Shown here one piece after another: positions 2,344 through 50,423 of a stretch of DNA of 64,000 nucleotides (position 1 is the stretch's first letter; each line of letters begins with the position of its first letter). Source of the stretch: Eubacteriales bacterium. Lineage in GTDB: Bacteria > Bacillota > Clostridia > Lachnospirales > Lachnospiraceae. The stretch is from the NCBI GenBank assembly GCA_030524715.1, contig JAUNGB010000001.1, positions 1 to 64,000 of the forward strand. The letters are read 5' to 3'. The translations under genes were made by a program, and so were the position numbers. The notes under the pieces are model-generated. The model was not told the DNA's origin. It ran no database searches and worked only from the letters and a program-made list of their open reading frames with translations.

Positions 2344-3195
2344 TTAAATACTGATGACCTTATCCTCCAGTGAGCAATACCTGTAGGCATGGTTTGACAG
2401 CCGTTCTTCAGCCGGGATATTCTTTTCGCTCGTACATGCAATCACTTTTTGAAACTTACTGGAGATTTTTCCTCCAACGCTTGAGGACCGGATTAACATG
2501 ACTTCGTCCACACAGGAAGCAATGATAAAAAAATCTTTTCCCAGTTCCTCTTCACAAAGTTTCAAGACGCCCGGATAGAGCAGGACCGCCGCACCAAAAA
2601 AGTGCCTGCTGTTTGTCAGCAGAAACATCCCCTCTACGGGAAGTTTGAACAGCGCAGACGGAAATTGCTTCTGCATATTAGCTAATGCCTCCTGATAGAG
2701 TTCATCTGTACTCCTTTTCCAGTATTCCTGATGTTTGTTCTCTATCATGAGTGTCATTGACATATCTTCCCCATTGTCACATAACAGATAGAACACAATG
2801 GACATATCCAGATACGGAATGCTCGGCACCTTCTTCAGCAGAGAGTCGTTTTCGCCGGTATGGATCAGCTTAAACATAATTTTGTCTTTAATCTTTTCAA
2901 ATCCCATATCGTTTAGGATCTCTTCCACTCCAGACGGTACCTCTGCCCGCGAGGAATAGAGGACCAGGATATGCTCCACTACCTCCTCAAATCCCATTCC
3001 GTTCCTATAATCCTCAAATAAGTCTGTTAAATAGATTGACGGGGCAAACCTGCTGCCTTTCTCCTTAATGCATAACTCCGTCTGAATCACCCCATTATTT
3101 TTTTCCGTTTCCAGCACGTGTACACAATAGCCATCTCCCAGCCTTTGTGATATCACTCTTTTAACATCTTCAGCAAAACTTTGTATCGCTCTCAT
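2344..3195 (-). CDS. DUF5688 family protein
   Basis: A 283-residue cytoplasmic protein of the DUF5688 type, a family of unknown function common in Lachnospiraceae mobile elements. Support comes from the overall pattern (N-terminal helix, LTDLFEDYRNG, YLDMSIVFYLL, then a C-terminal alpha/beta part) and from the matching arrangement in the second copy at 19594-20529, whose equivalent segment reads FFDMVMYYQLY. The ATG at 3195 has AAGGAGG seven bases upstream; the GTG at 3204 is too close to that site to be used. It follows the small HTH gene by 13 bp in the same unit. Confidence 0.65.
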   Translation of the reverse strand: MRAIQSFAEDVKRVISQRLGDGYCVHVLETEKNNGVIQTELCIKEKGSRFAPSIYLTDLFEDYRNGMGFEEVVEHILVLYSSRAEVPSGVEEILNDMGFEKIKDKIMFKLIHTGENDSLLKKVPSIPYLDMSIVFYLLCDNGEDMSMTLMIENKHQEYWKRSTDELYQEALANMQKQFPSALFKLPVEGMFLLTNSRHFFGAAVLLYPGVLKLCEEELGKDFFIIASCVDEVMLIRSSSVGGKISSKFQKVIACTSEKNIPAEERLSNHAYRYCSLEDKVISI

Positions 3196-3535: not shown

Positions 3536-3700
3536 ACAAAAAGAGACACCAAAACAATTTCGTTTGATGTCTCTTCATTCTTACAGCATAATAGCTGCGG
3601 TTACTTCGTTACTGCCAAATCCTGCTTCCGGTTTTCACCACCGGAACAAAAAACTTTTGTAATCTCTCGATTACATAAATCAGCTTTCCCATTCATTTTA
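3536..3700 (-). ncRNA. Conserved attenuator-type leader, copy 1
   Basis: Between the promoter (-10 at 3695-3700) and the HTH gene lies a leader of about 165 nt. It contains a TTCCGG...CCGGAA hairpin near 3637-3652. It ends in a long stem (AGAGACATCAAACGAAA against its complement, 3540-3575) followed on the minus strand by a run of T, the form of an intrinsic terminator. The same order of elements, with shared motifs (GATTTATG, TTTGTTCCGG, AGACATC), occurs at 20555-20739 and 23686-23870. Copy 1 is the most divergent. The structure must be opened or bypassed for the downstream operon to be read. Confidence 0.6.
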
Positions 3701-3744
3701 ACACTATATATTGTGTTTGTCAACTTTCAAACACTATATATAGT
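3695..3744 (-). promoter_or_regulatory. Promoter with paired palindromic operators, copy 1
   Basis: On the minus strand TTGACA (3718-3723) and TAAAAT (3695-3700) are separated by exactly 17 bases, a near-consensus sigma-A promoter. A palindrome, ACACTATATATTGTGT (3701-3716), fills the spacer. A second one, ACTATATATAGT (3733-3744), lies just upstream, about 30 bp centre to centre. This is a classic layout for a repressor acting at two sites three helical turns apart. Confidence 0.75.
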
Positions 3745-3763
3745 ATTTTATCGTCAATAATTC

Positions 3764-12651: not shown

Positions 12652-12694
12652 TAAAAACAGACTGCCAGAATGCGTTATCACACTCTGGCAGCCC
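12652..12694 (-). terminator. Intrinsic terminator/attenuator after ssb
   Basis: On the minus strand CTGCCAGA-G-TG pairs with its complement across a short loop (12662-12692), followed by TCTGTTTTT. It lies 22 bases after the natural end of ssb and directly before the ribosome binding site of the membrane-protein gene, so it would reduce transcription of everything from 12637 downwards unless read through. Confidence 0.7.
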
Positions 12695-20554: not shown

Positions 20555-20739
20555 AAAAAAATAAGACATCAGTAACTCGTTAGAATTTCTGATGTCTTAC
20601 TTACAAGCAGAGAACTCTTCTCCGCCAGGCTCCCATAGTGCAGGCTTGCGCCTGAAAAAATTAGCTTCCGGTGATCCGGAACAAACATGAATGTGGCTTT
20701 GCTAAAAAGCGCGCATAAATCAATGTCAAGTTTATTCTA
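20555..20739 (-). ncRNA. Conserved attenuator-type leader, copy 2
   Basis: About 185 nt between the -10 box and the DUF5688 gene. On the minus strand it shows, in order: TTGATTTATG, a TTTGTTCCGG/CCGGAAG hairpin, a CAGGC-GCAA-GCCTG hairpin, GAGCCTGGC, and a terminator-like stem AAGACATCAG/CTGATGTCTT followed by seven T. Copy 3 shares most of these blocks in the same order. The conserved loops and stems outside the terminator suggest a sensed structure and not just a terminator. Confidence 0.65.
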
Positions 20740-20783
20740 TCACTATATATAGTGTTTGTCAATTTTTATATTCTATATATAGT
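20734..20783 (-). promoter_or_regulatory. Promoter with paired palindromic operators, copy 2
   Basis: TTGACA (20757-20762) and TAGAAT (20734-20739) are 17 bases apart on the minus strand. CACTATATATAGTG occupies the spacer as a perfect palindrome. A second ACTATATATAG lies at 20773-20783, 30 bp away. Identical geometry to the modules at 3.7 and 23.9 kb. Confidence 0.75.
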
Positions 20784-20824
20784 ATTTTAACTGGATTTAA
20801 TGACAGCCAGAACCTACACGCAAA

Positions 20825-22352: not shown

Positions 22353-23339
22353 TCATGCGGCTTGTTTATATCCTCTTTTATAGTGTCTTTCTACCCAGCT
22401 AAGCAGCTTTTTCTCTCCCAACTCTTCCATGCAAAATTCATACAATTTGGGATTGTATGCTTTCAGCCTTATGAACTTACTGAAGTTTGTCAGATGACAG
22501 CCTACCGGACAGAACATGCAGCCAGTTCTTTGTTCCCCTGTACATCGGAGCTGTCCCGATGACGGCAGGAAACTAATCTGCCCGGGAACCTGTCCCTCCT
22601 CTGCCACTTCACCGTAAGGCTCTGCAATCTCAAGCTGGTTTTGCACATGATACCGGAGCACATCCTGCTCTTTCCAAAATCCCATCGGTTTGCTGAGCGG
22701 ACGCATACTTTCAAAGCTGTTACAGCCGGTACGCAGGTATGCCTCCCTGCGCCTGGCCGACTCTTCCGCCATAAGCGCCAGTATGGGGTGGCGTCCGGTC
22801 TGCTTCTCGTATATGGCAATCGGCTCCTCCTTCTGCTTGATACAGCAGTACGGGGAGATTAAAAGGTCCGATTCATACAGCGGCAGCCACTTTTTATAGC
22901 GCTGCCGGTATTCAGATTTTCTCCCATCGTGATCCAGCCCGTGAAGTTTATTAATGGCCCACTCACGCCCCTGCCTTGCATACCATATAGTCTGCGCCAC
23001 ATCCTTGCTGGGAAAGCACCAGCCATACTGCCTGATGATTTCTTTTAGCCCCATCACGGGTTTGAGCGTAACAACATTGTCGTACTTTCTTACAAAGCTC
23101 CGGATCTGGGGGTATTCCATCCAGGTATCGACAAACACAGCCGGTATCCGGGCGTCCACCTGCCTGGCAATATCCATGAGCACGGTGGAATCCTTGCCGC
23201 CGCTAAAGCTGATATAAACGCCGTCCGTTCCATATTCAGTTATAAATTTTTCAATCCTGTTTCTCGTCATAACCACCTTGACTTCCAGAGGTAATGACTG
23301 TCGGTAACGCAATAAATCTGCGTTTAAGGCATATTTCAT
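22353..23339 (-). CDS. PAPS reductase-like PP-loop enzyme, second type
   Basis: A 328-residue PP-loop protein with SFSGGKDSTV near residue 45, a central DUF3440-like region (RRREAYLRTGCNSFESMRPL) and a C-terminal cysteine cluster CTGEQRTGCMFCPVGC (about residues 265-280) that probably holds an Fe-S cluster. It is only distantly like the protein at 899-1780. Substrate unknown. The start MKYALNADLL at 23339 has no Shine-Dalgarno sequence nearby: the bases just upstream form the 3' hairpin of a structured RNA, while a good GGAAAGGAG site lies about 210 bases upstream, apparently separated from the ATG by an insertion. Confidence 0.75.
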   Translation of the reverse strand: MKYALNADLLRYRQSLPLEVKVVMTRNRIEKFITEYGTDGVYISFSGGKDSTVLMDIARQVDARIPAVFVDTWMEYPQIRSFVRKYDNVVTLKPVMGLKEIIRQYGWCFPSKDVAQTIWYARQGREWAINKLHGLDHDGRKSEYRQRYKKWLPLYESDLLISPYCCIKQKEEPIAIYEKQTGRHPILALMAEESARRREAYLRTGCNSFESMRPLSKPMGFWKEQDVLRYHVQNQLEIAEPYGEVAEEGQVPGQISFLPSSGQLRCTGEQRTGCMFCPVGCHLTNFSKFIRLKAYNPKLYEFCMEELGEKKLLSWVERHYKRGYKQAA

Positions 23340-23685: not shown

Positions 23686-23870
23686 CAAAAAAAGAAGACA
23701 CCAGAAACTCATAAAAATTTCTGATGTCTTGCTTTACAGACAAACTCCTGCCTGGCTCGTTTTTGTGGAAGGCTTACGCCTCAAAGTTGACTTCCGGTAT
23801 GCTTCAACCGGAACAAACATATCAATGTGGCTTCTTGAAGCACACATAAATCAATGTTGATTTTATTTTA
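23686..23870 (-). ncRNA. Conserved attenuator-type leader, copy 3
   Basis: About 185 nt, closely matching copy 2: TTGATTTATGTGTGCTT, AAGCCACATT, a TTTGTTCCGG/CCGGAAG hairpin, GAGGC-GTAA-GCCTT, GAGCCAGGCAGG, then an AGACATCAGAAATT stem against its complement followed by CTTTTTTT (23690-23730). Conserved segments are spread over the whole leader, while spacer bases vary and some stem changes are compensated, as expected for a functional RNA. Confidence 0.65.
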
Positions 23871-23915
23871 ATACCATATATTGTGTTTGTCAATATCTCA
23901 CTTTCTATATACAGC
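23865..23915 (-). promoter_or_regulatory. Promoter with paired palindromic operators, copy 3
   Basis: TTGACA (23888-23893) and TAAAAT (23865-23870) with a 17-base spacer on the minus strand. The spacer holds ACCATATATTGTG, a slightly degenerate version of the shared palindrome. A related GCTGTATATAG lies at 23905-23915, 31 bp away. This copy has the weakest palindromes of the three. Confidence 0.7.
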
Positions 23916-23989
23916 ATTTATCGTATTCAATAGTACCATTCATCATTTCTATACAGGCAGAGCCATGGCAAAGAGATTGAAGCTCGAAA

Positions 23990-25834
23990 TTACTGATGTC
24001 TACTTTTCGACAATAAACTTAATGTTGCTTTCCAATCTTCCATATTAACTGGTTTATCTGGTTTCCAATTTTTTGTGAAACTAGCTATTACAAACTTACT
24101 AACCTCCAGCGCATAACTAATTAATTCCTCAACCTCAAATCTTTTTATTGGTTTTTTCTTTATCAGCGTCTGCAGATCATCGATTGCCATTTTATCATTA
24201 TGAGCATATATCTTATTCCGCTGCGTTAGGAGCCCATCAATCTTAGGCTTAATCGAACAATACTTTTTCTGATACAAGCCCAAATAACCTTCAACCGTTA
24301 AATTAACCAAAACAGGTGCCTCCTGTAAGCCAAACAAGCCCGTTACTGTCCGATTCCAATTTACCTCATCTTTAAAAAAGCATTCTTCATTTTTCTTAAC
24401 TATATGTTGATATGGTGTATCCTCATTATGGGTTTTTCCGTCAATATTAATTTCAGTAGTTCCTCTATTTTGTGGAAAAGGCAGGTGAATACTGACGATC
24501 AATCCATGTGGGATCGCACCAGAAAAGAAAATATCCCCATGATGTGCTTTCACAATCTGCCGCACAATTTTAAGACCCAAACCATGTTCCGTTTCATCTG
24601 TCTGTTTTTGTGTACTGGAAATATCCTCGTCACTGTTCAAGGTGTTTAATTGCAGTTCACTCACTCCATAACCATTGTCCATCACGGAAAAAGTACAGCT
24701 TGCATCATTACTGCCAACAGAAATCTGTATTTTACACCCATCGGGATTATGGACAATACAATTTCTTATCAAATTATTCAGCATCCGATTAAGCAAAACC
24801 TGATCCCCGAAAATCGAGATGTTTTTACCGGGATTATCTTCTGATAATTCCAACTCGTAAAGTTCTGATAGACCATCATTTAATACCTCACTGACAACCT
24901 GACGTGCTAACTCTATCGGGTCAAGGCTTTGTTTTTGCATAGGCTGCATGGAATATTCTAATTTAGTTGTCAAATTCAAATCAGCCACTAAATCTTTTAG
25001 CCGTTCACTGTGTCTCCGGATTATCCCAGCCTGGTTTCGGACAGCTTCCGGCAAAGAAGAAGTGTCTTCTATTTCGCTTGCATATCCCAAAATCACAGAA
25101 AGCGGTGTGCGTATATCATGGGAAATTCCCCTGATCCAGTCTGCACGGGTATTATCCTTTTTCAGCAAATAGTCACCGGCCTTATTCAAACCAGCATTGA
25201 TTTCTGCTAACTCGCCGGTTTCTTCCAGATGGACAGGCTTTCCAACTGATAGATGCCGAATGCCTCTCAAAATCGGCGCCATAGCTTTTTCCACCCGGCG
25301 GGCATTGCGGATAAACAAATATATCATCAAAAAAATATTGATACAGAATACCGCCGTTAATCCGAATAGCATAGGCCAAATATATTGCGCCTTGAAAGAA
25401 AAATAGTAATTCACAACGCTTTCTGGAGGCAAACCGATCACCAAAAGCCCATCCTGTCGTTTTGCAATATTGGTCGGATAATCATCAAGATACCAGCGAC
25501 TAAACAGGGCAATATCCATTGAGGAATAATGGCGCGGTAATTCTTCCGGCAGATTTTCTTCCCAAACGACAGTGCCATCATCATCTAGGATCATAGCCCA
25601 CGCTTCAAAATTATTCAGCATTTCTTTCGCTTGTGTATCTGCACTGAATTCCCCATCTGTTGCCATGATATGATTTGAAAAATCCTCGATTGGAAATTTG
25701 GATGTTGCCACATTACCTAAATAAGCTATTACAAAATAGGAAGCTACTAACAGTGCATTGACAGCCAGAAAAAGAACTATAATCCTAACTGTGGAAAATA
25801 TATAGCGGCGGAAAAATCGTTCTGATGTGTTCAC
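23990..25834 (-). CDS. Sensor histidine kinase with C-terminal HEPN-like extension
   Basis: A 614-residue membrane kinase. Two membrane segments (about residues 15-37 and 153-175) flank an extracytoplasmic domain. Then come a HAMP-like region, the H-box RGISHDIRTPLSV (His near 243), an N-box (NNLIRNCIVHN), DNGYG and GLGLKIVRQIV. The kinase should end near residue 455 (SIHLPFPQ). Instead the frame continues for about 160 residues with RNKIYAHNDK (R539, H545), the Rx4-6H signature of HEPN domains, best recalled as AbiU2-like. The start overlaps the response regulator's stop (ATGA). It probably senses a peptide antibiotic and controls the divergent ABC genes. Confidence 0.8.
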   Translation of the reverse strand: MNTSERFFRRYIFSTVRIIVLFLAVNALLVASYFVIAYLGNVATSKFPIEDFSNHIMATDGEFSADTQAKEMLNNFEAWAMILDDDGTVVWEENLPEELPRHYSSMDIALFSRWYLDDYPTNIAKRQDGLLVIGLPPESVVNYYFSFKAQYIWPMLFGLTAVFCINIFLMIYLFIRNARRVEKAMAPILRGIRHLSVGKPVHLEETGELAEINAGLNKAGDYLLKKDNTRADWIRGISHDIRTPLSVILGYASEIEDTSSLPEAVRNQAGIIRRHSERLKDLVADLNLTTKLEYSMQPMQKQSLDPIELARQVVSEVLNDGLSELYELELSEDNPGKNISIFGDQVLLNRMLNNLIRNCIVHNPDGCKIQISVGSNDASCTFSVMDNGYGVSELQLNTLNSDEDISSTQKQTDETEHGLGLKIVRQIVKAHHGDIFFSGAIPHGLIVSIHLPFPQNRGTTEINIDGKTHNEDTPYQHIVKKNEECFFKDEVNWNRTVTGLFGLQEAPVLVNLTVEGYLGLYQKKYCSIKPKIDGLLTQRNKIYAHNDKMAIDDLQTLIKKKPIKRFEVEELISYALEVSKFVIASFTKNWKPDKPVNMEDWKATLSLLSKSRHQ

Positions 25835-31190: not shown

Positions 31191-34100
31191 TTATGCATTC
31201 TGGATCTGCCTTTGTTTCTTTTTCCGATGATAAGTATATCCTGCTGCCCCGGCGCCCGCGCCGGTAAGACCGATCACCGCCGCCACAGCCGCACCATGGT
31301 CCTTTTTTGGCACATAAACACCGGTGGCCTTCATGGTATACTGTTTCGGACCGCTGTTTTCCTTCCCCTCTCTTTCATAGGTGGAAATCAGGCGCACACC
31401 TTCCTCTTCAGGAAAATAGGCGCTTCCCTCATAAGTTATCGTACAGTCGCTTACTTTTTTTCTCCCAGTGACGGTTGCCCTCCGGCATAGGACACCATTT
31501 TCATCCGCATAGGCTTCCCCATCCCACCGGGCCGCTTCAACCGTATAATCCTCCGGCCTGGCCTCAATCAGGGAGAGCAGCTGGGCTTCGTATCCGGTAA
31601 AGTTTGGTTCGTCTCCGCTTACTTTAAAGACCTGGCTCCCGATCCAGTAGCCATCCAGTCCATACTCGTGGAAGATAACCGGAAAGGAAAAGGTATCGTC
31701 CCAGCGTTCATCCCCAAATGTCTGGTCGGAAATCTCAGCGATTGTTTCCATTACCTGTCCAGTACCCTCGTCCGTCACCGTCACTTTAATCCGTGACGGG
31801 ATCACGTCTTTGGCCTCAACCGCCTCGTAAAACACCTCCTCGCTGACTGGCACCTCATGGGCCGGAATCACAGTCTTCACCTTCTGGGTTTCCATCAGAC
31901 GGTAGATATTCCCGTCCCGGTCAATTTCTTCCTCCGGCGTTACCTCTGCCTTTCCGTCAAGAAACGGATTCGTGGCAATCTCAAGGGTACGTCCGGCTTT
32001 CCCGGCCCCCTGCTCCTCAACCACCTCTGTCCGGATCTCGGAGAGACGGTATTTCGTTCCGTCTCTCTCAATCTCCTTTTTAAACATCTTTTCCGCTTCG
32101 TCGGAATCGGGGTTTTCTGTGGTATACTGGTGCTCCTCATAGATGTTTTCAATCACATCATCCGCCGCCTCCGCCTTCATCGTGGGCGTGCCGAGCGCCA
32201 GGACCGCCAGCAGTAAAAATAATCCTGCTTTCATGCTGCCCTTTGACTTCCTGTGCTTTTTTCTCCGGTGATACAGGAAGAAGGAAATCAGGCAGACTGC
32301 GGACGCTGCCCAGGCTGCAAACAGCAGGGCAAGACGGCTGGTATCCCCGGTCTTTGGTGCATGGGTAAGCTCCCCAACCGTCAGATCACCCTCACCGTTC
32401 CTTTTGGCCTCATAGCTGGCCGTGATGGTCCCGTAATGCTTCTGGTCCGTAATGGTGTTGTCACCGATGATACTGCCGTCCTCAAACACCGTAAAGGAGA
32501 AGACCGTCTCATTCCGGTCATAGCCTTCCGGCGCTGTCAGCTCCTTAAAGTGGTACTCTCCCGGAGCTGGAACCGGGAAATACACCTTACCGTTTTCATC
32601 ACTGATACCAGTAAAGATTCTGTTTCCGTCCCGGTCCGTGACTTCAATCTCCGCCCCAGGCAGTTCCTCTGCCGTGGTTACATCCACTTTGGAGATGATC
32701 ATTTCTGTTTCCTTGTAGTTCTCCATAGTTGTGTCCCCCTCTATGGTGCCGTTTTCCGTTACCGTAAACTCATGAAGCACCCCGTTTAGATAGTACCCCC
32801 TGGGCGCTTCGGTCTCCTTAAATGTATAGACCCCTTTTGACGGCTTCTTAAACCGGATCACACCTGCCTCATTGGTTATCCCTTCTGTGTAAACGCTGCC
32901 GTCCGGTCCGTAAACGGTTATCCTGGCCCCGGCAAGTTTCTGACCGGTCCTGCCGTCAATCTTATAAAGCTCCATATACTCCGCCGAGGGTTTCGGTTTG
33001 TCCGGAGTGCCTCCGCCGCCACCGGAATGGGTGATTTTATAGTTCTTCACCACAAATTCCTGCAGCGCTTCCATGTCCTTCACTTCGATTTCCTGCGGCT
33101 CCATCTTCTTATATCCGGACGGGGCCTTCACCTCACGTACCGTATACCGCCCTGTTACAAGGTTCTTAAAGTGCTCTGCCTCACCGTCCTTAGAAGTCCA
33201 TTCCCGGATCACCGCACCGTCCAAATTTCGTACCAGCTGGAGAACCGCACCACCTAAAAGATTTCCAGTGTTTCCGCTGGTCTTTTCTATCTCCACCTGA
33301 ATCGGCTGGTTCTTCACGTCAAAATGCTGGAGAGCCTGGTTTGGAAGGATTTCAATTACCATATCCTTCATAGACGCATACCCGTCCGGTGCCTGCACTT
33401 CCCGGATCGTATATATTCCGGCCGGCAGACCTTTTAAGATAAGCGGCCCTGCCTCGGACTTCCACTCCTTTATGACGGCCTCCTCTTTCGTCCCCGCAGC
33501 CTTGATAAGCTGGAGGATTGCTCCCGGTACTGCACTGCCGTCAGAAACGTCTGTCTTTTGGAACTCCGTGACGATTTTTTCATTTGCAAGGGTAATTTCC
33601 TGCCTTGCCTCTGTCCCACTCACCTCAAAGGTCAGACTTCCTGTTACAGCATAGCCCTCCGGAGCCGCCAGCTCCTTGATTGTGTAGCTGCCTGCCAAAA
33701 GCCCTTTAAATACTTCCGGGGCTTTTGTGCTCTCCCACTCCTTTATCACCTTTCCGTCTGAATTGCGGATTAACTGGAGCGTCGCACCCGGCAGGGGTTC
33801 CCCTGTTTCCTTGTCCGTTTTCCCTACATCAACCTGGAGTTTCTGGTTGGTGATGGTGATGGTGCGGGTTCCAGGTTCTGCTGTGATCTGGATTTTTACC
33901 GGTTCTTTTAAGAGCAGGTATCCATCCGATGCCTGAATTTCTTCCAACATGTACCAGCCTGATTTTAAGCCGTGGATTACTTCCGGTTCCCCTGTGGTGA
34001 TCCATTTTGCCACTTCATTTCCGCTGTCATCGGCAAGCCGCAGCACAGCCCCTGTTACCGGCTCTCTGGTTTCCTCGTCTAACTTATCTACCATGAGCTC

Positions 34101-37100
34101 TGTCTTACGGTTATCCATCACAAAGGTCTGGAGCTTATAATCTTTGGTGACGGTAAGCTGCATCGGCTCCTGTAGCAGCTGATACCCGTCCGGAGCTTCC
34201 ACCTCCTTTACCAGGTATACCCCGGCAGGCAGCCCGAAAAACTGAATGGTTCCGGTTTCATCCGTCACCCACTCCTTTATAACCTCGCCCGTCTCCTTTG
34301 CAATCAGCTGCATTTTGGCACCCTTTAAAGGCTCCCCGGTTACACGATCCACCTTTTTAATCTCTGTCTTGGTGTCATCGTCAAACATCTCCACCACGGG
34401 AACCTCTTCTGCCGTCATATTCTTCGATACTGTGAAATACACTTTCTCCGCCTCTATGTAACCGTCCGGCGCCTGTGTTTCAATCAGGACATACTTCCCT
34501 TGTGGCAGGCACTCAATCTCATGGGGCGTCCCTGTAGAAATCCAGCCCTCTATCACATCCCCCTCTGTCCGGGTTACGGTTCCGTCCTGATTTACGGTCT
34601 CCGTAACGCTGCGGACTTCCAGCCTGGCTCCAGGCAGCTCCTCCTTTGTTGTCAGCTGCTTCTTGGATACAATGACCTTGTTGGGCGCATCTTCCGCCTT
34701 ATACTGGTATGTCAGTGTCTGATAGCGGTCCGTCTTCACATTAAACTGGAAGTCATGGACCGTTTCGTCAAGCAGATACCCGTCCGGCGCTCCTACTTCC
34801 TGTATCCGGAAATGGTAAAGGCTCACCGCTCCGTCCGTTCCCACCGTCCCAATCGGAGCCGGGGAGCTGACCGCACGCCCGTCTGCGTCTGTGATTAAGA
34901 TGGTTGCCGCATTGGTATCCAGGTTTGACAGCTTAAACCGCGCGCCGGATAACACCTCTTCCGGGTTCCGCACATCGGACTTGATAATCTCAACCTGTCC
35001 TAAGATCAGTTCATTCACAAGCTCAATCCTCTGAATTTCCATCGTATCCACCACCGCAAAGGGCAGCTCTGCCGCCCGCGCATACCCAAATGGGGACTGC
35101 TCCTCCACAAAGTAATAGTTTCCTGCCACCGGCTGGAGAAGCGCATGGGGTTTTAAATCCCCGACTTCAAAGCCTTCCGGTATGATCCCCTCCTTTTCGT
35201 CCTTCCTGGTGTACGTTCCATCCGATCCGGAAATCCAGCGGTCCACCAGGTACTCTGTTTCATATTCCATGGCCGGTATCAGGTTTCCGCTTTCATCTTT
35301 TAATAGATTGCCGTCCGTATCAGTCACATACAAAAGTTTCCCGTCCTGATCCACCATTTGGTGCTTCGCAAGGGTTCCGTCCTCCTTCGCCCGGTAAACT
35401 GCCACCGTGGCTCCGGCAATTTCCTTTCCGCCTGCCACATTCACCTTTGTTAAATAAACCTGGATCGGCTCGTCCGTCATAGTGATGGTCTGCACCTGCT
35501 CCTTAGAGCCAACATCCAGAACCGGCACATAGACCGGGTCCGCTACCATATAGCCGGAAGGAGCTTTCTCCTCCACCAGGACATATTTCCCCACCGGCAG
35601 GTACTCAAATCGCATAGCACCTGTCTCTGTGGTGTAGCAGACAGCCTGGCTGGTTCCCGGAACCGGCTTAATCTCGTAATCATAGGCCGTGTAGCTGTGC
35701 CCTCCCGGTATGGTGACCTGGTGCGCCGTTTTCCTCACCTCGCTCCCGTCATCAGTCTGCCATTCACATACCTTTTTATCCTGCTGATATCGCACGGTCC
35801 CTTTTTCGTCATACTGTACTTCCCCCTTTTCATCCACCTCTGCCTCGTATAAGGCCAGAGACGCCCGGTGGCTGTTATCCATCACCTTCCCGGTACGGGC
35901 ATCTAGCTTGAATACCTCCAATGCCGTGTGGTCGTCTTCCATCACAAATCCCTGCACTTCACCGGTCTCCAGTACAGTGACTTCCACATCCTCCGCCGTC
36001 ACGTAGCCTGCCTTTGTCGGCACCTGCGTTTCCCGTAGGATATAGTCCCCAGGCATGATGTGGTCGATCCAGTGGGGTGTTCCCCCTTCCGAAACCCAGC
36101 TATCTGCCAGAACCGGTTCATCATCCATATCCCGCAAGATTTCCAAATGCCAGCCCCGGTCAGAATCATCATATACCCGGTATGCCTCGTAGAGGGCCAG
36201 GGACGCGCCCGCGATCTCTTTCCTGGAGGTCATATCCAGCTTTGATACCTCGATTTTGGTGTAATCGTCTTCCATCACGTAGGACTGCTTCCCGCTTACA
36301 TCGCGGACAATGATTCCGACTGCCACAGACTGTACATATCCATCAGACAGGGGCGCAGCCGTTTCCTCCAGGATATAAGCTCCCTGCTTCACCCGCGCAA
36401 TTTCATACGCGCCCTGATCTGTCACCCACTCATTTTCAATCCAGGTGACGCCGCCGTCCTTATAATAGATAGGAAGCCCATTCTCGTCCAGCACCGGCTG
36501 CAGGTCCTGGTTGATGGACTGTTTTCCGCCCTCATCCGTATACACATCCACAGACTGGGAGATGATCTTATCCCCATTTTCATTCAGCGGCCAGACAATC
36601 ACGGCTCCGGTCTCATCAGTTACATAGGCCATACCGGTTTCAGAGTCCAGCATACAGAGACGGTTTCCCCAATCGTCTAAACCGTAGAGGATTCCAGTCT
36701 CTTCATCGAGTTCCGTGGGATCGTATTTTAAATCAAAATACCACAAATCCACGGGCGGATTTGCTTCCGCCGTGATATCCCATTCCGTCTGCCCTGCCGC
36801 ATTCGTCCCGGTCTGCCTGATATCTGTATCCACGCCGGTTTCATAAGCCTGGATTCCCGTCACGGAGTCAAACAGATTTCTCTTTACCTTGACACCCTCA
36901 TATTCATGGGCTCCGGTCTTTTTCACCTCCAGCCCTTCATATAATGTGAGTGTTGCATTCTCTACATAGTTCTTCCCCTGGCTTCCAGAAAGACTCTTTG
37001 TCACATACCCAAATCCCGCAAACTCCCCGTTGGGTTTATATTGTAAATCCACATCCCCACGGCTGGATAACTGCTTCTCATCCCCCTCCACACGGTATGT

Positions 37101-40100
37101 AATAATCTCCTCCGGTTTTTCTACCTTGTGTATTTCAATATGTGTAGGGGCATCCTTTACTATGAGCTGGTGCATATCCTCCACCATGGTTTTCCCATCG
37201 GAGCCAATGGGGCGCATGTACTGGTATTTCACGGCCTGCGTCTTTTTCCCCGGGTCGCCGTCCTCATAGTATTCCACCTTGTCGCTGTATACGGTAAATG
37301 CCACAGGTTTGGACTTCACATACCCGTCCGGCGCTTCTATCTCCACAAGGACATAGGCTCCAGCTCCTAACGGCTGGTAAGTTTCCAGGTAGCCGACGCA
37401 CTGCTTTTCCGTGTGCAGGCCCCCATCTTCCCCTTCTATTTCCCCGTCCCGGACCGTTGTATACGCCTTAAAAACGCCTACCTCTGCCCCGGTATAATCC
37501 TGCATGAAAATCTGTTCATTCTCATCATAAAGCGGAATTCCATCCTCACCGAACAGGATATCCCCGCTCCCAGCCACGCCGGATGCGCCGTTGCCGCTGA
37601 TGTCCCGTTTCGCTGCATAAATCTTAAACAGCGCACCATCATGCAGGATATTTTCTCCTGTCTCGGAATCCAGCTTTTCAATCCGCAGCCGGGAACTGTA
37701 AAACTCGTTTTCAAAGTCCTTTCCTGCAAAGGAGATAAAGTTAAAGGCTCCGGCTGCCTCCAGCCCGGCTTCCCGGTTCCCGACATCGCCGTCATCGTTT
37801 ATAATCTCCCCGTACCTGGGGTCTAATACGCTCCATGGAACCAGGGCTTTTGCGTACAGGCGGTCCACAGCCGTTGATTTCCCGGTCATGGTGTCTACGC
37901 CGTCCATTGTCACACCGTAATCCTTTAAATTCCCGTCCCGGTCATAGTAGGTCTCATAATACACGCCGTCCGCGCTGCCGGCATTCTCGCTGATGGAACC
38001 GTAATGGTAATACTTTGCCACCGCCTCATTCTGGCAGTCCCTTCTGCTGTCCGGCTCCAGACCGTACTTGAACACCTCAAAATCACCATCGTTGTTATGT
38101 GCGTAGATGATGTGAGTCTCCTCATTAAACCGGATCTGGTAATGCTCCGTCAGTTCCTCCGGTGTCATGGCCGCGTCATAGAGATACTCTTTCGATGGGA
38201 TCTTATCATGTACCGTGCCGTCTTCGTCCACTTGTGGGACAAAGGGAATCTCAATCTCCTGGGGCGCGTCGATTGCATAGTGCTTCTGCGGGATACCCGT
38301 TGGCTGCTGCTCAACCAGGACATAGATGCCATAAGGCAGCATCCGGCTCTGCCCCCAGTAATCGTCTTTCCCGCCGCCCCGGTTTGCATGTACGGTTGTC
38401 ATGTCGCCGTCCGCATCGTACTTCTCCAAATCCCACTCTATTGCGAGGCCGGATGCAGCGTCAAGATTTTCTTTGAAGAAGGCTTCATAATCATAGCTGC
38501 CGTCTTCTTTTTTCATAAGCTTCCCCGTCTCCTCCAAATCAGAACGCAGGTACAGCTTAAAGAAAAAGCCGGGAAGCGTCTTGGTCTCCTGTGTGCCGTT
38601 ATATCCCCCGAACAGGACGGTAAACGGATCGCGGTGAATCTCATAGGTGTTGTGCTCATAGGAATCCAGGGCGATATCCTTTGTCACCTTGATTGCCTGC
38701 TTAATCACCCGCTCCAGCACAAGGACCGGCTCCTTCCGCGTGCCGGCGTCCTCATAGACCTCATACTGCCCCGGATACAATAACACCGGGAATTTCAAAT
38801 AGGAGCCATCCTCCATTACCGGCTTTGTTGTTGTCACGTTTACAGCTGCCGGGTATCCTGTGATTTCCTCTCCGGTCACCACCCGGTAGGTTCTTACGTG
38901 CATTTCCCCTTCTTTGAATTCCTCGTCCGTGTCCACGTGAACGCTTAACAGACCGTCCCCGGTGACCTGCGTTCTCAATGGAGCCAGTATCTCTTCCGTC
39001 TCAACCACTTCTTCGTTTGTATAAATTGGGACTGCTTCCATCAGGGGGATTTTCTGGCCTTCCCCGTCTAACAGGAACTCCCCTGCCGCATAGGTTTCAT
39101 AAACCGGCGCATAGGCTGTTTTTAACCGGATTTCCCCTTTATCAAGCGCCTCTAAATCCAGTTCCTTTTTCTCCGCCGTAAAGCGGTACCCGTTCTTTTC
39201 ATACTGCCCATCTTCGTAAACAGCATAATAGAAAACGCCTTCGTACTCCTTTCGGATCACTAGGCGCCCGGTGCCGCTTTCATAGAGAACCGGCTGTTTT
39301 GCCAGTGCTTTATAGCCATAGCGGATCTTTGCGTACCAGGTCCCCGCCTCCTCATAGACTGCCTCCACGTCATACGCGTCCCAGAAACTCTCTGAAGCGC
39401 AGAAGGCAAGGATCTCATCAATCATCTTCCCATTTGTTTTCCCGGACAGTTTAAGGAGTTCCCATGGGTAATCCGCCAGCCCGTTCTTATACCCGGAAAG
39501 AGCTAGGGCCCATGAAGTCTCCCACAGGATATAGTCCTCGTCAATGTCTTCCGATTCCTCCAAATCCGGATCGGACGGCTCTTCCCGATCAATGGACGGG
39601 ATATAGACGTTTAATCGGTTCACTGCCGTGACGGTCTGGGTAAGCGCCTTATCAGACAGCACCGGGTTTCCGTCATCGTCCAGCTTTACAATCTTATTTC
39701 CGGTTTCGTCCAACTTGTATTCCCCTCCTTTCGCCGTCTGATAGAGGGTGTTCCCTTGCGCGTCCTTCTTTTCCACCCGCTTTGTGCCGGCTGCCACCTG
39801 CTCCTGTGATGTGGTCTCCTTTGTGGTGACCTCATAGACTTTCGTATCCTCCGGCAGTCCGGACAGCAGGAGATCAAATCCTTTGGTTTCATAATAGTTC
39901 ACCGTGAAATCATAGGAATCCCCCGCCCATTCATTGTACCGGTGGGTAAAACCATCGGTGCAGGCACTTCCTGACGCGGTTAACACGACAGGCTTCCCCT
40001 TCCGGTTGCTTTCAGATAAGTTACTTCCTGTCCTGGATAGCTCATAGCCCTCGGAGCGTGAAACCTCCTCCACGTAATAGCTACCTAAGATAAGCGGCCG

Positions 40101-42911
40101 CCCAATCCAGTTATTCCCGTTTTGCGCCTCATTCTCCGTATAAAGGTTTGGCACTTCCTTTGAGGTTTCGGAAACCTCTGTGATGGCTAAAAACGATGCG
40201 TCACCGTTGCGGTCCGTTGTGGCAATGGATACCAACTCCCCTGTGGAAAACACAACGCCGGTTTTCCCGTCCGGGTGGATGATGTCCTCTGCCGCATAGA
40301 GGCCGTACACCGCCCCCTCCAGGGTTGCATCCGCCTGGGTTTTCCCGTAGCTGTCCTCCCCTTCCAGTTCAAACAGCTCCTTATCCCGCTTATTGATGTG
40401 CAGCTCCCCCTCGGTGCGGTGATCCTTCACCAGATAGGAGTAGCCGGTATAGTCAGACGGATAGCTGCCCTGGTTGATGGGAGCCACCTCACTGTCCTCC
40501 TGGACGCCGTCCCATTCCCAGCCGCCGCCATCCGCTTCCCTTGCAAACGAAGGACGGGCGATAAGAAAGGTGGACGCATTGGAGGGTGTTGCCAGGTCTT
40601 CCTCTATCCCAATCTGAGATTTCGTTGCCACGGAAGGCTGCTTCCCCGGTATGGAATTTTCCAGCGTCTCTCCGGTCTCTTTTTCAGAACCGGCTGCTTC
40701 TGTCTCCTCATTTTCGCTCTCCCCTGCTTCCGTACTCTCCGCCACGGTTTCCTGGTCCGTCTCCGTCTCTTTTACCGGACCGCCCTCTTCTTTTGTTTCC
40801 TCCCCGGTTTCCGGTGACGGTTGGGATTCCCCGGAAGCCTCTTTTGTTTCCTCAGCAGTTTTGTCTGTTTCCGCCGTTTCCCCGGCAGATTCCTTCGTAT
40901 CTCCACCCGTTTCTTCGGTTTTCCCGTCAGAATCTTCCTCCCTGTCTCCCCCATCCGGTTTTTCCGAAACAGACGCTTCTCTGACCCCCTTCTCTTCCTG
41001 CGGTTCCTCCGTATTCTGCCCGGAAGTTTCTTCCTCATGTCCACCTGTTTCCGGCGCCTCCGCCCGGACCAGGTCTGTCACCTTTTCCGATACTGATACC
41101 TGCGGTATATCCGCCCTGGTTGGGGCCGGAACTGTCTGGTTACCGGGATAATATCCCGTGATGCTCCCATCCCCTTCTGTCTGGGAAGATGAAAACTCCA
41201 CAATCTCAATCGGGAGGTCGTCGTTATGCAGGTCATGCAGGATATAACCGGTTCTGGCCTGTGTCTCTCTCACGGTGTAAATTCGCTTTAAATGAATAAC
41301 GGTATCCCACGCCTCGTCTCGGTCATCTTCCATCAAGTCCCTGGCTACCCCCTCGTCGATGGAGTGGAAATCACAATGTTCCTCGCACCAGTCCACGCAT
41401 TCCTGCCAGGCTTCCCATGCCTCTTTCTCCAGACGTTCATTCTCTTCATCCGCTGCGTCGGATTCCTCATCGGAAGCATCATCAGACGCTTCCACGTAAT
41501 GGATAATCGGGTCCGGATGCCCGCCGCAGTAAGTTTTCTCGTACTCATAGAGCTTTGTATCTGAATGAGAAAAATGCCCGTCTGAGTCCGTTTTTAGCCC
41601 CGTGCCGCATACCGTTAAATCCGCAAATTTTCCCTCTGATGTCGGTACCATTCTGGTAAACTGTTCCTTCTCCAGGTTCGTCCCGTCAAGCTGTGAAAAA
41701 TCAAACTGCTCTAATACCTCAAAGGTGGAATTTTCCAGCGTCTTTCCCGTCTCTGAACACTGCTTTTCCAGCTTTATTAAATAATCCCGCTTAAAGGTCT
41801 CCTCATGCAGGTACTGGGTGTAAGGAATCTCATACTCCCCTTCGCCCCGTTGCGTAGTGTCTTTTCCAAAGGACAGCCATACCTCCCAGGGCTCCTCTTC
41901 CCCCGCCATCGTAATCATGGCCTGCTTTCCTTCCACTGCGCTGCTCTCGTCCCACCCGTCCGGATACCAAATTTTAAAGGTATTGGGTCTTATCCAGTAC
42001 TGGGCTGCCGTGGAACCTTCTGGAAAATGGCCTTTTACTAAACCGATGTCCGGGTTCCCTGTCGTACATGTAAAGGTGATTTTTCCATGATCCATAACAA
42101 CCGTCCACCCTTCCGGTAAATCATACACAAGAGTGGACTGCCTCCAGTCATCAGCATCATAATCTAATGTGAGACTATAAGTTCCGTCCTCGCCCTCTAC
42201 CATCTTGTGAACGGGAGCTTCACTTTTGAATTTGGACGCAAAAGTTGGAACTGCGCCATCTTCCACGGCTCCATTTGTCTGGTTAAAGAACTGTTCCAAC
42301 GCCCCCCTTGTCTGTGCTGCCAGCGCCGGGCTTTTTAAGTTAGCCATCAGGACTTCCATCTGATCCCTGAAATCATCTAACCCATTCCAATTACCGGACA
42401 TAATTGCCCAGGTAGCTGCCTGTCCCAGAATATAATGACCCTGCCCCACCTTTTCATTTCCTGAAAGATAACCCTCAAAATTCCCTGATGAGGAAAGGGC
42501 ATACCATAAAATCTCTGCTTCTTTCCTGCTCATGCCTAAAGGGAGATTATCTCCATCTAAATCTAGATCATAGGTGACAAGCGTTCCAACGGTTCCTTTT
42601 TGCATTGACTTGTTCGGTTCCAAACAATAACCGGGAGCACTTCCTCCACCCTCACTTGCATTCGTAATACCATACGGCCAGAGCCCTACCCGATTATGGT
42701 TCTTTCCATAAAACGGGAAGCTGGCTCCCTCCTTTAGGAGATTCTGCGTGCCATAATATGTAAACGAGCTGCCTCTTCCTTTCGTCTCCGCGGCATTCGC
42801 AAATAAACCTCTCATATCTGCACACAAAAAAGGCTGAAGCGTAAGGATAATGGCTAAGAACAGCGCTATCCTGCGTTTCAGCCTTTTATATAGGCTTTTA
42901 TGTTGTTTCAT
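31191..42911 (-). CDS. Giant thioester/Cna-B repeat surface adhesin
   Basis: About 3,906 residues. A signal peptide (about 1-42) is followed by a thioester-type domain with Cys96 and Gln164 (GYCLEP...GQAATW). Next come an acidic Ser/Thr/Glu-rich spacer (about 630-760), at least 15 SpaA/Cna-B-like beta domains (K-x-D...G-x-x-L-x-G-A-x-F/L pattern, then APDGY), and a sorting signal APKTG (3518) with membrane segment and basic tail. The frame then continues: a second signal-peptide-like segment after Met3560 (32234), about 300 more residues, and a final C-terminal membrane anchor with basic tail. It looks like two surface genes fused in frame. A GAGGGAG site sets the ATG at 42911. Covalent host or surface attachment is the likely role. 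Confidence 0.85.
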   Translation of the reverse strand: MKQHKSLYKRLKRRIALFLAIILTLQPFLCADMRGLFANAAETKGRGSSFTYYGTQNLLKEGASFPFYGKNHNRVGLWPYGITNASEGGGSAPGYCLEPNKSMQKGTVGTLVTYDLDLDGDNLPLGMSRKEAEILWYALSSSGNFEGYLSGNEKVGQGHYILGQAATWAIMSGNWNGLDDFRDQMEVLMANLKSPALAAQTRGALEQFFNQTNGAVEDGAVPTFASKFKSEAPVHKMVEGEDGTYSLTLDYDADDWRQSTLVYDLPEGWTVVMDHGKITFTCTTGNPDIGLVKGHFPEGSTAAQYWIRPNTFKIWYPDGWDESSAVEGKQAMITMAGEEEPWEVWLSFGKDTTQRGEGEYEIPYTQYLHEETFKRDYLIKLEKQCSETGKTLENSTFEVLEQFDFSQLDGTNLEKEQFTRMVPTSEGKFADLTVCGTGLKTDSDGHFSHSDTKLYEYEKTYCGGHPDPIIHYVEASDDASDEESDAADEENERLEKEAWEAWQECVDWCEEHCDFHSIDEGVARDLMEDDRDEAWDTVIHLKRIYTVRETQARTGYILHDLHNDDLPIEIVEFSSSQTEGDGSITGYYPGNQTVPAPTRADIPQVSVSEKVTDLVRAEAPETGGHEEETSGQNTEEPQEEKGVREASVSEKPDGGDREEDSDGKTEETGGDTKESAGETAETDKTAEETKEASGESQPSPETGEETKEEGGPVKETETDQETVAESTEAGESENEETEAAGSEKETGETLENSIPGKQPSVATKSQIGIEEDLATPSNASTFLIARPSFAREADGGGWEWDGVQEDSEVAPINQGSYPSDYTGYSYLVKDHRTEGELHINKRDKELFELEGEDSYGKTQADATLEGAVYGLYAAEDIIHPDGKTGVVFSTGELVSIATTDRNGDASFLAITEVSETSKEVPNLYTENEAQNGNNWIGRPLILGSYYVEEVSRSEGYELSRTGSNLSESNRKGKPVVLTASGSACTDGFTHRYNEWAGDSYDFTVNYYETKGFDLLLSGLPEDTKVYEVTTKETTSQEQVAAGTKRVEKKDAQGNTLYQTAKGGEYKLDETGNKIVKLDDDGNPVLSDKALTQTVTAVNRLNVYIPSIDREEPSDPDLEESEDIDEDYILWETSWALALSGYKNGLADYPWELLKLSGKTNGKMIDEILAFCASESFWDAYDVEAVYEEAGTWYAKIRYGYKALAKQPVLYESGTGRLVIRKEYEGVFYYAVYEDGQYEKNGYRFTAEKKELDLEALDKGEIRLKTAYAPVYETYAAGEFLLDGEGQKIPLMEAVPIYTNEEVVETEEILAPLRTQVTGDGLLSVHVDTDEEFKEGEMHVRTYRVVTGEEITGYPAAVNVTTTKPVMEDGSYLKFPVLLYPGQYEVYEDAGTRKEPVLVLERVIKQAIKVTKDIALDSYEHNTYEIHRDPFTVLFGGYNGTQETKTLPGFFFKLYLRSDLEETGKLMKKEDGSYDYEAFFKENLDAASGLAIEWDLEKYDADGDMTTVHANRGGGKDDYWGQSRMLPYGIYVLVEQQPTGIPQKHYAIDAPQEIEIPFVPQVDEDGTVHDKIPSKEYLYDAAMTPEELTEHYQIRFNEETHIIYAHNNDGDFEVFKYGLEPDSRRDCQNEAVAKYYHYGSISENAGSADGVYYETYYDRDGNLKDYGVTMDGVDTMTGKSTAVDRLYAKALVPWSVLDPRYGEIINDDGDVGNREAGLEAAGAFNFISFAGKDFENEFYSSRLRIEKLDSETGENILHDGALFKIYAAKRDISGNGASGVAGSGDILFGEDGIPLYDENEQIFMQDYTGAEVGVFKAYTTVRDGEIEGEDGGLHTEKQCVGYLETYQPLGAGAYVLVEIEAPDGYVKSKPVAFTVYSDKVEYYEDGDPGKKTQAVKYQYMRPIGSDGKTMVEDMHQLIVKDAPTHIEIHKVEKPEEIITYRVEGDEKQLSSRGDVDLQYKPNGEFAGFGYVTKSLSGSQGKNYVENATLTLYEGLEVKKTGAHEYEGVKVKRNLFDSVTGIQAYETGVDTDIRQTGTNAAGQTEWDITAEANPPVDLWYFDLKYDPTELDEETGILYGLDDWGNRLCMLDSETGMAYVTDETGAVIVWPLNENGDKIISQSVDVYTDEGGKQSINQDLQPVLDENGLPIYYKDGGVTWIENEWVTDQGAYEIARVKQGAYILEETAAPLSDGYVQSVAVGIIVRDVSGKQSYVMEDDYTKIEVSKLDMTSRKEIAGASLALYEAYRVYDDSDRGWHLEILRDMDDEPVLADSWVSEGGTPHWIDHIMPGDYILRETQVPTKAGYVTAEDVEVTVLETGEVQGFVMEDDHTALEVFKLDARTGKVMDNSHRASLALYEAEVDEKGEVQYDEKGTVRYQQDKKVCEWQTDDGSEVRKTAHQVTIPGGHSYTAYDYEIKPVPGTSQAVCYTTETGAMRFEYLPVGKYVLVEEKAPSGYMVADPVYVPVLDVGSKEQVQTITMTDEPIQVYLTKVNVAGGKEIAGATVAVYRAKEDGTLAKHQMVDQDGKLLYVTDTDGNLLKDESGNLIPAMEYETEYLVDRWISGSDGTYTRKDEKEGIIPEGFEVGDLKPHALLQPVAGNYYFVEEQSPFGYARAAELPFAVVDTMEIQRIELVNELILGQVEIIKSDVRNPEEVLSGARFKLSNLDTNAATILITDADGRAVSSPAPIGTVGTDGAVSLYHFRIQEVGAPDGYLLDETVHDFQFNVKTDRYQTLTYQYKAEDAPNKVIVSKKQLTTKEELPGARLEVRSVTETVNQDGTVTRTEGDVIEGWISTGTPHEIECLPQGKYVLIETQAPDGYIEAEKVYFTVSKNMTAEEVPVVEMFDDDTKTEIKKVDRVTGEPLKGAKMQLIAKETGEVIKEWVTDETGTIQFFGLPAGVYLVKEVEAPDGYQLLQEPMQLTVTKDYKLQTFVMDNRKTELMVDKLDEETREPVTGAVLRLADDSGNEVAKWITTGEPEVIHGLKSGWYMLEEIQASDGYLLLKEPVKIQITAEPGTRTITITNQKLQVDVGKTDKETGEPLPGATLQLIRNSDGKVIKEWESTKAPEVFKGLLAGSYTIKELAAPEGYAVTGSLTFEVSGTEARQEITLANEKIVTEFQKTDVSDGSAVPGAILQLIKAAGTKEEAVIKEWKSEAGPLILKGLPAGIYTIREVQAPDGYASMKDMVIEILPNQALQHFDVKNQPIQVEIEKTSGNTGNLLGGAVLQLVRNLDGAVIREWTSKDGEAEHFKNLVTGRYTVREVKAPSGYKKMEPQEIEVKDMEALQEFVVKNYKITHSGGGGGTPDKPKPSAEYMELYKIDGRTGQKLAGARITVYGPDGSVYTEGITNEAGVIRFKKPSKGVYTFKETEAPRGYYLNGVLHEFTVTENGTIEGDTTMENYKETEMIISKVDVTTAEELPGAEIEVTDRDGNRIFTGISDENGKVYFPVPAPGEYHFKELTAPEGYDRNETVFSFTVFEDGSIIGDNTITDQKHYGTITASYEAKRNGEGDLTVGELTHAPKTGDTSRLALLFAAWAASAVCLISFFLYHRRKKHRKSKGSMKAGLFLLLAVLALGTPTMKAEAADDVIENIYEEHQYTTENPDSDEAEKMFKKEIERDGTKYRLSEIRTEVVEEQGAGKAGRTLEIATNPFLDGKAEVTPEEEIDRDGNIYRLMETQKVKTVIPAHEVPVSEEVFYEAVEAKDVIPSRIKVTVTDEGTGQVMETIAEISDQTFGDERWDDTFSFPVIFHEYGLDGYWIGSQVFKVSGDEPNFTGYEAQLLSLIEARPEDYTVEAARWDGEAYADENGVLCRRATVTGRKKVSDCTITYEGSAYFPEEEGVRLISTYEREGKENSGPKQYTMKATGVYVPKKDHGAAVAAVIGLTGAGAGAAGYTYHRKKKQRQIQNA

Positions 42912-42927
42912 TTTCTCCCTCATTTCT

Positions 42928-49386: not shown

Positions 49387-49419
49387 AAAAAGACAGAGCT
49401 TTCATTTCAGCCCTGTCTT
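49387..49419 (-). terminator. Terminator/attenuator before cold-shock gene
   Basis: On the minus strand AAGACAG pairs with CTGTCTT, followed by TTTTATG. It falls between the S1-like gene and the cold-shock gene with no promoter after it. Confidence 0.65.
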
Positions 49420-49430
49420 GCCTGCCGCGC

Positions 49431-50393
49431 CTATTTTCTTCTAATAATCCTTGTGATAATCCCTTCCGCCACCTCCCTCTCATCGTTAATCCTCGTAACC
49501 AGGAAGCCGACCTCGTCCCCCTGTCCCGGGAGGCTGGCCGTATTGCAGGAGTGGGCCACCGCATTTACCTTGCAGTCCAAGCAAAGAAAATAAGTGCCCT
49601 TATACACATCCGTCACCTTCCCCACGTATTTCCCCTGGCGGCGCAGACGCATTAAGTTCTCCTTGTTGTTGTTGATCCCAGCTTCTTTCGCACTGACCTC
49701 CACCTTCATCTTTTCAACAGATTCGCCAGAGACCTTCTTTACCACCACGCTGACGATATCCCCAATGGTATATTTCTCGTTAGCATCGGCCATCCATTCC
49801 CAGGACATGTCCCGCGCCTTCAAGGAACATTCCACGCCAAACACCTCCAACCGGACTGCCTTTTGCGCTACGGCAATCACACGGGCCTCCACCACCCGAC
49901 CTGGAAGAATCATCGGAGGTACATCCTGCTGGCTGACATAGAACTGCTGGCGTTTCCGCAGCATGGCCTCCTTCCTGGAGGCAACCACGCTTTTTGATTT
50001 CTCCTCCAGCTCCCGGACTATAAAATCCAGTTCCGCGCCCAGCATGTTATTGGCAAGACGGGTCTGACGGTTGAGCGGATCGGAGTTTTCCCTTCCGTCT
50101 CCCTCTAAGTTAATCATCATCTCTTCCATGGGAATCAGCACGCGGTAGCCTTTATAATATACCACCGCCACCACCCAACCGCCCTCTAACCGCTCAATCC
50201 CGCTTAAATTTCCAGACAGGATCTTTCTGGTCCGGTAGGCGTTGACAATTTCATGCCACGCCACATCCGCGCTCTCCCGGCCGACCGCTGCCCCGGAGGC
50301 GTCCACGGTAAGAATCCCCAGTGCTCGGTTCTGCGCCTTTCCTGCCCTCTCCTGGACCTCCTTTGCCGAACGGTCTTCCTTTTCATCGCTCAT
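49431..50393 (-). CDS. S1-like RNA-binding protein
   Basis: A 320-residue protein with at least two S1/OB-fold-like segments (about 150-230: PGRVVEARVIAVAQKAVRLE and GDIVSVVVKKV; about 245-318: GKYVGKVTDVYKGTYFLCL and GDEVGFLVTRIND). An N-terminal domain (about 25-145) contains YKGYRVLIPMEEM. Related proteins, annotated as ribosomal S1-like, occur in clostridial ICEs. It probably binds RNA. The ATG at 50393 has AAAGGTGG at seven bases. It is the first gene after the promoter at 50486-50514. Confidence 0.75.
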   Translation of the reverse strand: MSDEKEDRSAKEVQERAGKAQNRALGILTVDASGAAVGRESADVAWHEIVNAYRTRKILSGNLSGIERLEGGWVVAVVYYKGYRVLIPMEEMMINLEGDGRENSDPLNRQTRLANNMLGAELDFIVRELEEKSKSVVASRKEAMLRKRQQFYVSQQDVPPMILPGRVVEARVIAVAQKAVRLEVFGVECSLKARDMSWEWMADANEKYTIGDIVSVVVKKVSGESVEKMKVEVSAKEAGINNNKENLMRLRRQGKYVGKVTDVYKGTYFLCLDCKVNAVAHSCNTASLPGQGDEVGFLVTRINDEREVAEGIITRIIRRK

Positions 50394-50423
50394 GTACATA
50401 CCACCTTTCCTGTTTTTTGAGCC

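Follow-up and report, generated by a model that had tools for sequence, protein, structure and literature searches.

Relation to known antitermination RNAs

Four cis-acting antitermination RNAs, namely put, EAR, conAn2 and canT, are the only ones named in the sections available to us of three papers (PMC9378689, PMC8955417, PMC11658703). As described in these sections, the putRNA of HK022 is approximately 70 nt in size and consists of two stem-loops; putL is located just after the promoter, several terminators are passed and put acts as RNA alone (PMC9378689). The EAR RNA of the Bacillus eps operons is cis-acting in processive antitermination (named in PMC8955417 and PMC11658703). The conAn system, composed of the ConAn1 protein and the conAn2 RNA, is found in pLS20-family plasmids, where it stands at the beginning of long conjugation operons of Gram-positive bacteria that contain internal terminators (PMC8955417). 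Finally, canT of Tn916 is a cis-acting RNA of an integrative and conjugative element which lets the polymerase pass terminators (PMC11658703).

Here we analyzed 64,000 nt of a Eubacteriales bacterium of the Lachnospiraceae (assembly GCA_030524715.1, contig JAUNGB010000001.1, positions 1 to 64,000), referred to as the window. It carries three copies of a leader RNA, here named leader 1, 2 and 3. Such leaders head different operons of large conjugative elements. They have a conserved structure, are used repeatedly before unrelated genes, share a common promoter and are followed by internal terminators. With moderate confidence we regard the leader as a cis-acting processive-antitermination RNA of this family of large conjugative elements. 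In our best reading it would work like HK022 put, EAR, conAn or canT; kinship with them is not claimed.

The first two hairpins of the leader, P1 and P2, span 51–69 nt directly after the promoter, which resembles putL. However, put belongs to a phage of E. coli, whereas the leader has a terminator as a fixed part, and the two are likened by description and not by sequence. The same holds for canT, likewise a cis-acting RNA of a conjugative element but described from a 452-nt fragment near one end of Tn916. As in the conAn system, the leaders head gene rows of conjugative elements with internal terminators, but here several leaders are present per contig. EAR, which we take to be among the Rfam models, differs since the leaders match no Rfam family. 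We class the leader as a new RNA family whose putative mechanism is of a known kind. Being short and variable in sequence, with a clear common fold and up to five copies per contig, it is a good subject for determining the required features of antitermination RNAs.

Composition of the three leaders

All three leaders are located on the minus strand at the positions given by the original prediction. Leader 1 (3536–3681) is composed of P1 (3675–3658), P2 (3646–3626) and a terminator with T-run (3575–3541) and heads the genes of a helix-turn-helix (HTH) protein of 99 aa and a DUF5688 protein. In leader 2 (20555–20721), P1 (20715–20692) and P2 (20681–20666) are followed by P3 with a GCAA loop (20654–20641), P4 (about 20625–20606) and the terminator with T-run (20598–20562). 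This leader heads a gene row with DUF5688, YqaJ, ERF, SSB and RecD2 that reaches to 3764. Leader 3 (23686–23852) has the same parts: P1 (23846–23826), P2 (23813–23792), P3 with a GUAA loop (23782–23769), P4 (about 23752–23734) and the terminator with T-run (23730–23695). A PAPS_reduct-like gene (22353–23339) is present downstream of it.

For each of the patterns GATTTATG-N20..48-TTTGTTCCGG and TTTGTTCCGG-N2..16-CCGGAAG there were exactly three occurrences in the 64 kb and none in 100 dinucleotide shuffles. Minimum free energy z-scores against shuffles were -5.41, -4.15 and -4.68 for leaders 1, 2 and 3, respectively.

The same order of elements had been proposed for all copies. This is true for promoter, P1, P2 and intrinsic terminator, but GAGCC-GGC is restricted to copies 2 and 3, with AACCGCAGC in copy 1. 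The small GNAA-loop hairpin (P3) is indeed confined to copies 2 and 3, and a near-consensus, sigma-70-like promoter (11/12 match) with its -10 box 12 or 13 nt before the leader start is present at each copy. The proposed location between a promoter and the first gene of an operon agrees with the promoter placement; in copy 3, however, the first open reading frame (ORF) of at least 60 aa is found about 350 nt beyond the terminator.

The consensus leader consists, from 5' to 3', of the promoter, GAUUU, the P1 hairpin of free sequence, a linker ending in UUUGU, P2, a U-rich stretch, P3 (in many), P4 (in some) and the terminator. P2 is commonly UUCCGG/CCGGAA followed by G, and the terminator commonly begins with GACAUC.

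Conservation of the structure

A first model (R1) was built from four sequences. A pattern scan of genome contigs yielded 35 stretches, which by reading comprised 24 leaders and 11 chance matches, and 26 distinct leaders were used for a second model (R2). In the collected loci R2 gave 52 matches. Of these, 48 carried P1–P2 and represented 38 distinct leaders, some places being present twice. The remaining four (L060:1776, L060:2788, L085:180 and L053:7180, the last two being one place) were terminators without P1–P2 and were kept only in the terminator-arm duplex test described below.

In an alignment of 26 rows P1, P2 and the terminator were paired in 97.7% of 520 cells. Changes on both sides were seen in 9 of 20 pairs, and the number of double-change cells was 43, whereas shuffles gave 14.1 (standard deviation 3.7) and slid controls no more than 9. 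Variants of P2 that still pair include UCCCGG/CCGGGA, UUUUGG/CCAAAA, UUCCGA/UCGGAA and UUCUUUC/GAAAGAA. For P1 the mean z-score was -3.06 (range -0.2 to -8.8) among 20 leaders with a pairwise similarity below 0.80. Thus, in the covariation check suggested for the leaders and their homologues, P1, P2 and the terminator covary; the sequence varies widely while the fold is clearly common. That the leader is a functionless repeat which has spread over the element by copying is very improbable: copies within one element can be alike, but the compensatory changes in P1, P2 and the terminator occur between dissimilar leaders, and the position between promoter and genes is fixed.

The whole window gave no match at the gathering threshold to Rfam release 15, and all matches of the leader regions at E values up to 10 were far below the gathering scores. 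In 140 kb of relatives four matches were found, all of them group II introns. The comparison with all Rfam models thus gave no family for the leader. Together with the covariation and several copies per contig in other genomes, this supports the view that the leader is used element-wide and belongs to no known class. A literature search retrieved no paper on the leader; a catalogue of microbiome RNA candidates, seen in part, may include it in its tables (PMC8040213).

Some copies were incomplete. The places L085:180-303 (identical with L053:7180-7303, H. hathewayi) and L060:1776-1900 carried, downstream of a leader, the P4-plus-terminator part without P1–P2, which looks like a separate duplication of the terminator part. 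At L063:5543-5677 (the same place as L042) the leader terminator lacked the 3' arm and T-run and the -35 box was poor; this copy was counted as a leader. In H. hathewayi the counterpart of leader 1 has a group II intron immediately after its terminator (L085:19218-19522).

Terminators inside the gene rows

The authors of the conAn study regard terminators inside an operon as a good indication of processive antitermination (PMC8955417, as far as available). We counted terminators in nine stretches reaching from one leader towards the next (223.5 kb), each presumably corresponding to one operon. Outside of coding regions 19 terminators were found in sense and 5 in antisense orientation (p = 0.0066), compared to 35 and 42, respectively, in the coding regions of the same stretches. 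Only 1 of the 19 sense terminators was followed by a promoter of at least 10/12 within 250 nt. When two additional element stretches were included whose heading by a leader is not established (window 51250–29600 and G369 30001–67848), the counts were 25 and 6 (p = 0.0009) and for coding regions 52 and 57. Intrinsic terminators in the genes behind, as expected for a processive antitermination RNA, are present in the leader-to-leader stretches.

Terminators between tandem genes were also compared with those in 200 kb of host chromosome. The median distance to the next ORF was 40.5 nt (n = 14) versus 151 nt in the host (n = 17; p = 0.012), and a promoter-like sequence in between was seen in 1/14 versus 8/17 cases (p = 0.02). 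Inside the gene row of leader 2 a minus-strand terminator is located at 12659–12694, with a T-run that leads directly into the AAGGAGG and ATG of the next gene. Taken as a sign and not as proof, the internal sense terminators behind the leaders point to antitermination.

Putative mechanism

In the favoured reading, the operator-bearing promoter would start the transcript 5–6 nt before GAUUU, as judged from the -10 box. The first 51–69 nt would fold into P1 and P2, followed in many leaders by P3 and P4 and then by a strong intrinsic terminator. A stray or unmodified polymerase would halt at the leader terminator. The nascent RNA, by itself or together with a trans factor, would modify a polymerase that has made P1–P2, so that this polymerase may then read through the leader terminator and the later terminators in the genes behind. 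We infer this function of the leader, including the readthrough, the contact with the polymerase and any protein partner. It suggests how large conjugative elements of gut bacteria could hold long gene rows silent. One version, which we put forward tentatively and consider rather unlikely, is a put-like nascent RNA of a new class that alone makes the polymerase terminator-resistant and serves as a module before several gene rows in a Lachnospiraceae conjugative element. If this were true, one operator-controlled promoter class and one RNA would gate much of the element against stray transcription.

Alternatively, a ligand or an element-encoded RNA-binding protein could act on P1–P4 and decide on the leader terminator only, and on nothing further downstream. 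In line with such a local attenuator, the leader ends with its terminator, and in 33 of 38 leaders a simple motif resembling a ribosome-binding site is present 9–59 nt behind it. Multi-operon regulons under local attenuators are known. However, the 5' arm of the terminator showed no excess complementarity to the upstream leader (mean duplex z +0.34 in 41 sequences, three of them terminator-only), and pairing of the conserved 5' end with the cognate terminator was not stronger than with non-cognate ones (p = 0.60, 20 leaders). P1–P4 and the terminator are able to fold side by side. The failure to find an alternative antiterminator pairing speaks against a simple riboswitch, and local attenuation would leave the sense terminators further down unexplained. 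We consider this explanation possible but not likely.

Originally, a riboswitch-like or an antiterminated leader had been suggested. The first is without support, as no conserved alternative pairing with the terminator arm was found. We favour the antitermination leader because of the sense terminators inside the stretches, the negative search for an alternative terminator pairing and the criterion of the conAn authors (PMC8955417, as far as available).

Several observations weigh against antitermination by the leader. One concerns the secretion genes. In H. effluvii and in the contig of the window, the two cases examined, the leader in front of these genes precedes one or two small genes, after which comes a near-consensus promoter with a hairpin and its own terminator, but without P2 (L125:10191-10062 in H. 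effluvii; L166:16310-16177, i.e. C75:120310-120177, in the window's contig). This is perhaps a second, simpler leader type. The secretion genes may therefore be transcribed without the leader, which also fits a local attenuator and speaks against a simple picture of one leader and one operon. For this reason both the antitermination reading and its RNA-alone version are held less firmly. In the alignment, further pair types were not in excess (18 versus 17.3 in shuffles), and P3/P4 folded only slightly better than shuffles (mean z -1.0, 20 leaders). An earlier terminator count over 168 kb, for which the masks differed and the cut-off was less strict, gave 14 sense and 8 antisense terminators, which is not significant. 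Regarding the host comparison, the shorter gaps partly account for the difference in promoter counts, terminators within 60 nt of the next ORF were not significantly enriched (8/14 versus 5/17, p = 0.16), and terminators per junction were no more common than in the host (14/164 versus 17/129).

Operator promoter

The promoters of the three leaders share a feature that is absent from the original description, a TATATA palindrome in the spacer between the -35 and -10 boxes. On the minus strand, the promoter of leader 1 (3695–3747, TTGACA-17-TAAAAT) carries two such palindromes (3700–3714 and 3730–3744), as does that of leader 2 (20734–20786, TTGACA-17-TAGAAT; palindromes 20739–20753 and 20772–20786). 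That of leader 3 (23865–23917, TTGACA-17-TAAAAT) has a palindrome at 23870–23884 and an upstream TATATA site recognized by eye. The second palindrome is located 30–33 bp upstream in leaders 1 and 2; by eye it is present in many other leaders, which were not counted.

Of the 38 distinct leaders, 35 had a spacer of 17 nt, 32 had the exact motif TATAT in the 38 nt examined upstream of the leader, and in 28 the distance from the -10 box to the leader start was 12 or 13 nt. A narrow pattern of the operator promoter gave nine matches in four contigs, seven with a leader behind and two chance-like; several known leaders were missed by it.

The same operator at nearly every leader would also be expected if control took place at this promoter only, with the terminator as an insulator or with the leader giving rise to a short RNA that acts in trans; the sequence picture would be the same for stable short leader RNAs. 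However, with an insulator placed after it, the main promoter could not express its own genes unless the insulator was passed, and among the promoter-like sites listed none lies on the minus strand between the leaders of the window and their first genes. We regard this explanation as improbable.

Putative protein partner

A protein of the element could bind the leader and travel with the polymerase, comparable to ConAn1. This bipartite form overlaps with the antitermination reading given above. A candidate for an RNA-binding partner is the S1-domain protein of 322 aa encoded at 49431–50399 (minus strand), which resembles ribosomal protein S1 (E 1.4e-6). Proteins at least 60% identical to it were found in 8 of 394 genomes, all eight with leaders, whereas none of the other 33 genomes in this comparison had a leader at E ≤ 1e-4. 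On the other hand, any core gene of the element family would co-occur in this way, and the comparison would miss far leader variants such as C75:121299-121146. In H. hathewayi the S1 gene is 3.9 Mb away from the leaders, with the closest VirB4-like gene likewise some 4 Mb off, and G163 (a draft, 87% complete) has a leader without the S1-domain protein. A LoaP-dependent leader would call for a second NusG-family protein in the genome. A single NusG-family protein (PF02357) was present in three of six leader genomes (G204, G369 and G163, two of them 87–89% complete) and two in the other three; in the genome of the window (G000) these are on a contig other than those of the leaders.

No leader was recognized by R2, with filters off, in positions 1–50000 of the 65,774 bases of pLS20. 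The best match (28.3 bits, 38030–38164) contained UUUGUUC..GGAA but a P2 of at most 3 bp and lay over a gene end; the gap at 1968–2564 reached 17.1 bits. The product of 2564–3082, which we guess to be ConAn1, had no relative in the element loci searched (best tblastn E 1.6). A travelling protein partner of this kind seems possible but not likely.

The S1-domain gene is flanked by sense terminators on the minus strand, just before (50430–50450) and just after it (49390–49417); no leader was found at the head of this gene row.

Distribution of the leaders

Leaders were found in records of Hungatella hathewayi, H. effluvii, Schaedlerella, Lachnoclostridium An14, Lachnospiraceae 3-2, metagenome-assembled genomes of Dorea and others, some of whose titles name Clostridiaceae or Oscillospiraceae. 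Hungatella is presumably a member of the Lachnospiraceae, and we take the leader-bearing organisms to be gut bacteria.

Within the family, R1 matched 9 of 397 genomes at E ≤ 0.05. By reading, six were real (G000, G046, G204, G369, G361 and G163) and those in G144, G248 and G034 were due to chance. Since R1 missed G025, G028 and G159, all found by R2, the genome counts are lower bounds. In the order, R2 matched 15 of 392 genomes at E ≤ 0.01, of which only G000 and G028 were real; the remainder were terminators or other hairpins without P1–P2, and two opposite-strand matches (L116 and L117) fell at places already read. In the class, one of 291 genomes was matched, again G000. The sampled genomes outside the family yielded no real leader, in runs with stricter filters and with a model that misses far variants. 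Such a variant is the leader at C75:121299-121146 on the window's own contig: with filters off it was outscored (24.9 versus 26.8 bits) by a nearby hairpin-plus-terminator that has no P2.

With a short pattern, matches were obtained in 38 of the 299 family genomes. Of these, 30 were read in context, with leaders only in the window's own genome and G204, and eight were seen as the matched string only. A strict DNA pattern of the leader gave no match in viral contigs, nor did blastn of leader 3 against plasmids and phages.

Setting in conjugative elements

The first ORFs behind the leaders are of different families, among them HTH, DUF5688, an RNase A-like protein and an 89-aa protein. The leader is therefore not a case of autoregulation by one product. 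First ORFs were named by Pfam in the window and, for the RNase A-like protein, in H. effluvii. For DUF5688 no papers were found in the literature search.

In H. effluvii a single contig carries five leaders within 119 kb, and one of these is approximately 0.6 kb upstream of type IV secretion genes. This contig carries VirB4-like, VirD4-like and transglycosylase-peptidase genes and, according to protein comparison, has genes in common with positions 1–20 kb and 29.7–51 kb of the window. The window's own contig carries a VirB4-like gene (C75:111680-114328) downstream of the leader at C75:121299-121146, and a further leader of the same genome is located at C172:39460-39331. In H. hathewayi the spacing of three leaders was 2.8 and 16.5 kb, compared to 3.1 and 17.0 kb in the window. 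Leaders on one contig may belong to one element or to several.

Concerning single genes, the first ORF behind the leader of L119 (11396–11836) had a Pfam match to the bacterial RNase A domain of CdiA-type toxins, and the first ORF at G000:C172:38668-39108 was 62% identical to it. By eye, RNase A-like first ORFs were also present behind the leaders of L055, L064, L065, L067, L069 and L080. The C-terminal part of a histidine kinase (window 23990–25834) was weakly similar to HEPN AbiU2 (E 8e-5, below the Pfam cut-off). The window also encodes a protein of 3910 aa (31191–42923), whose best match, at 52% identity, was to a protein of 4148 aa from the H. effluvii contig.
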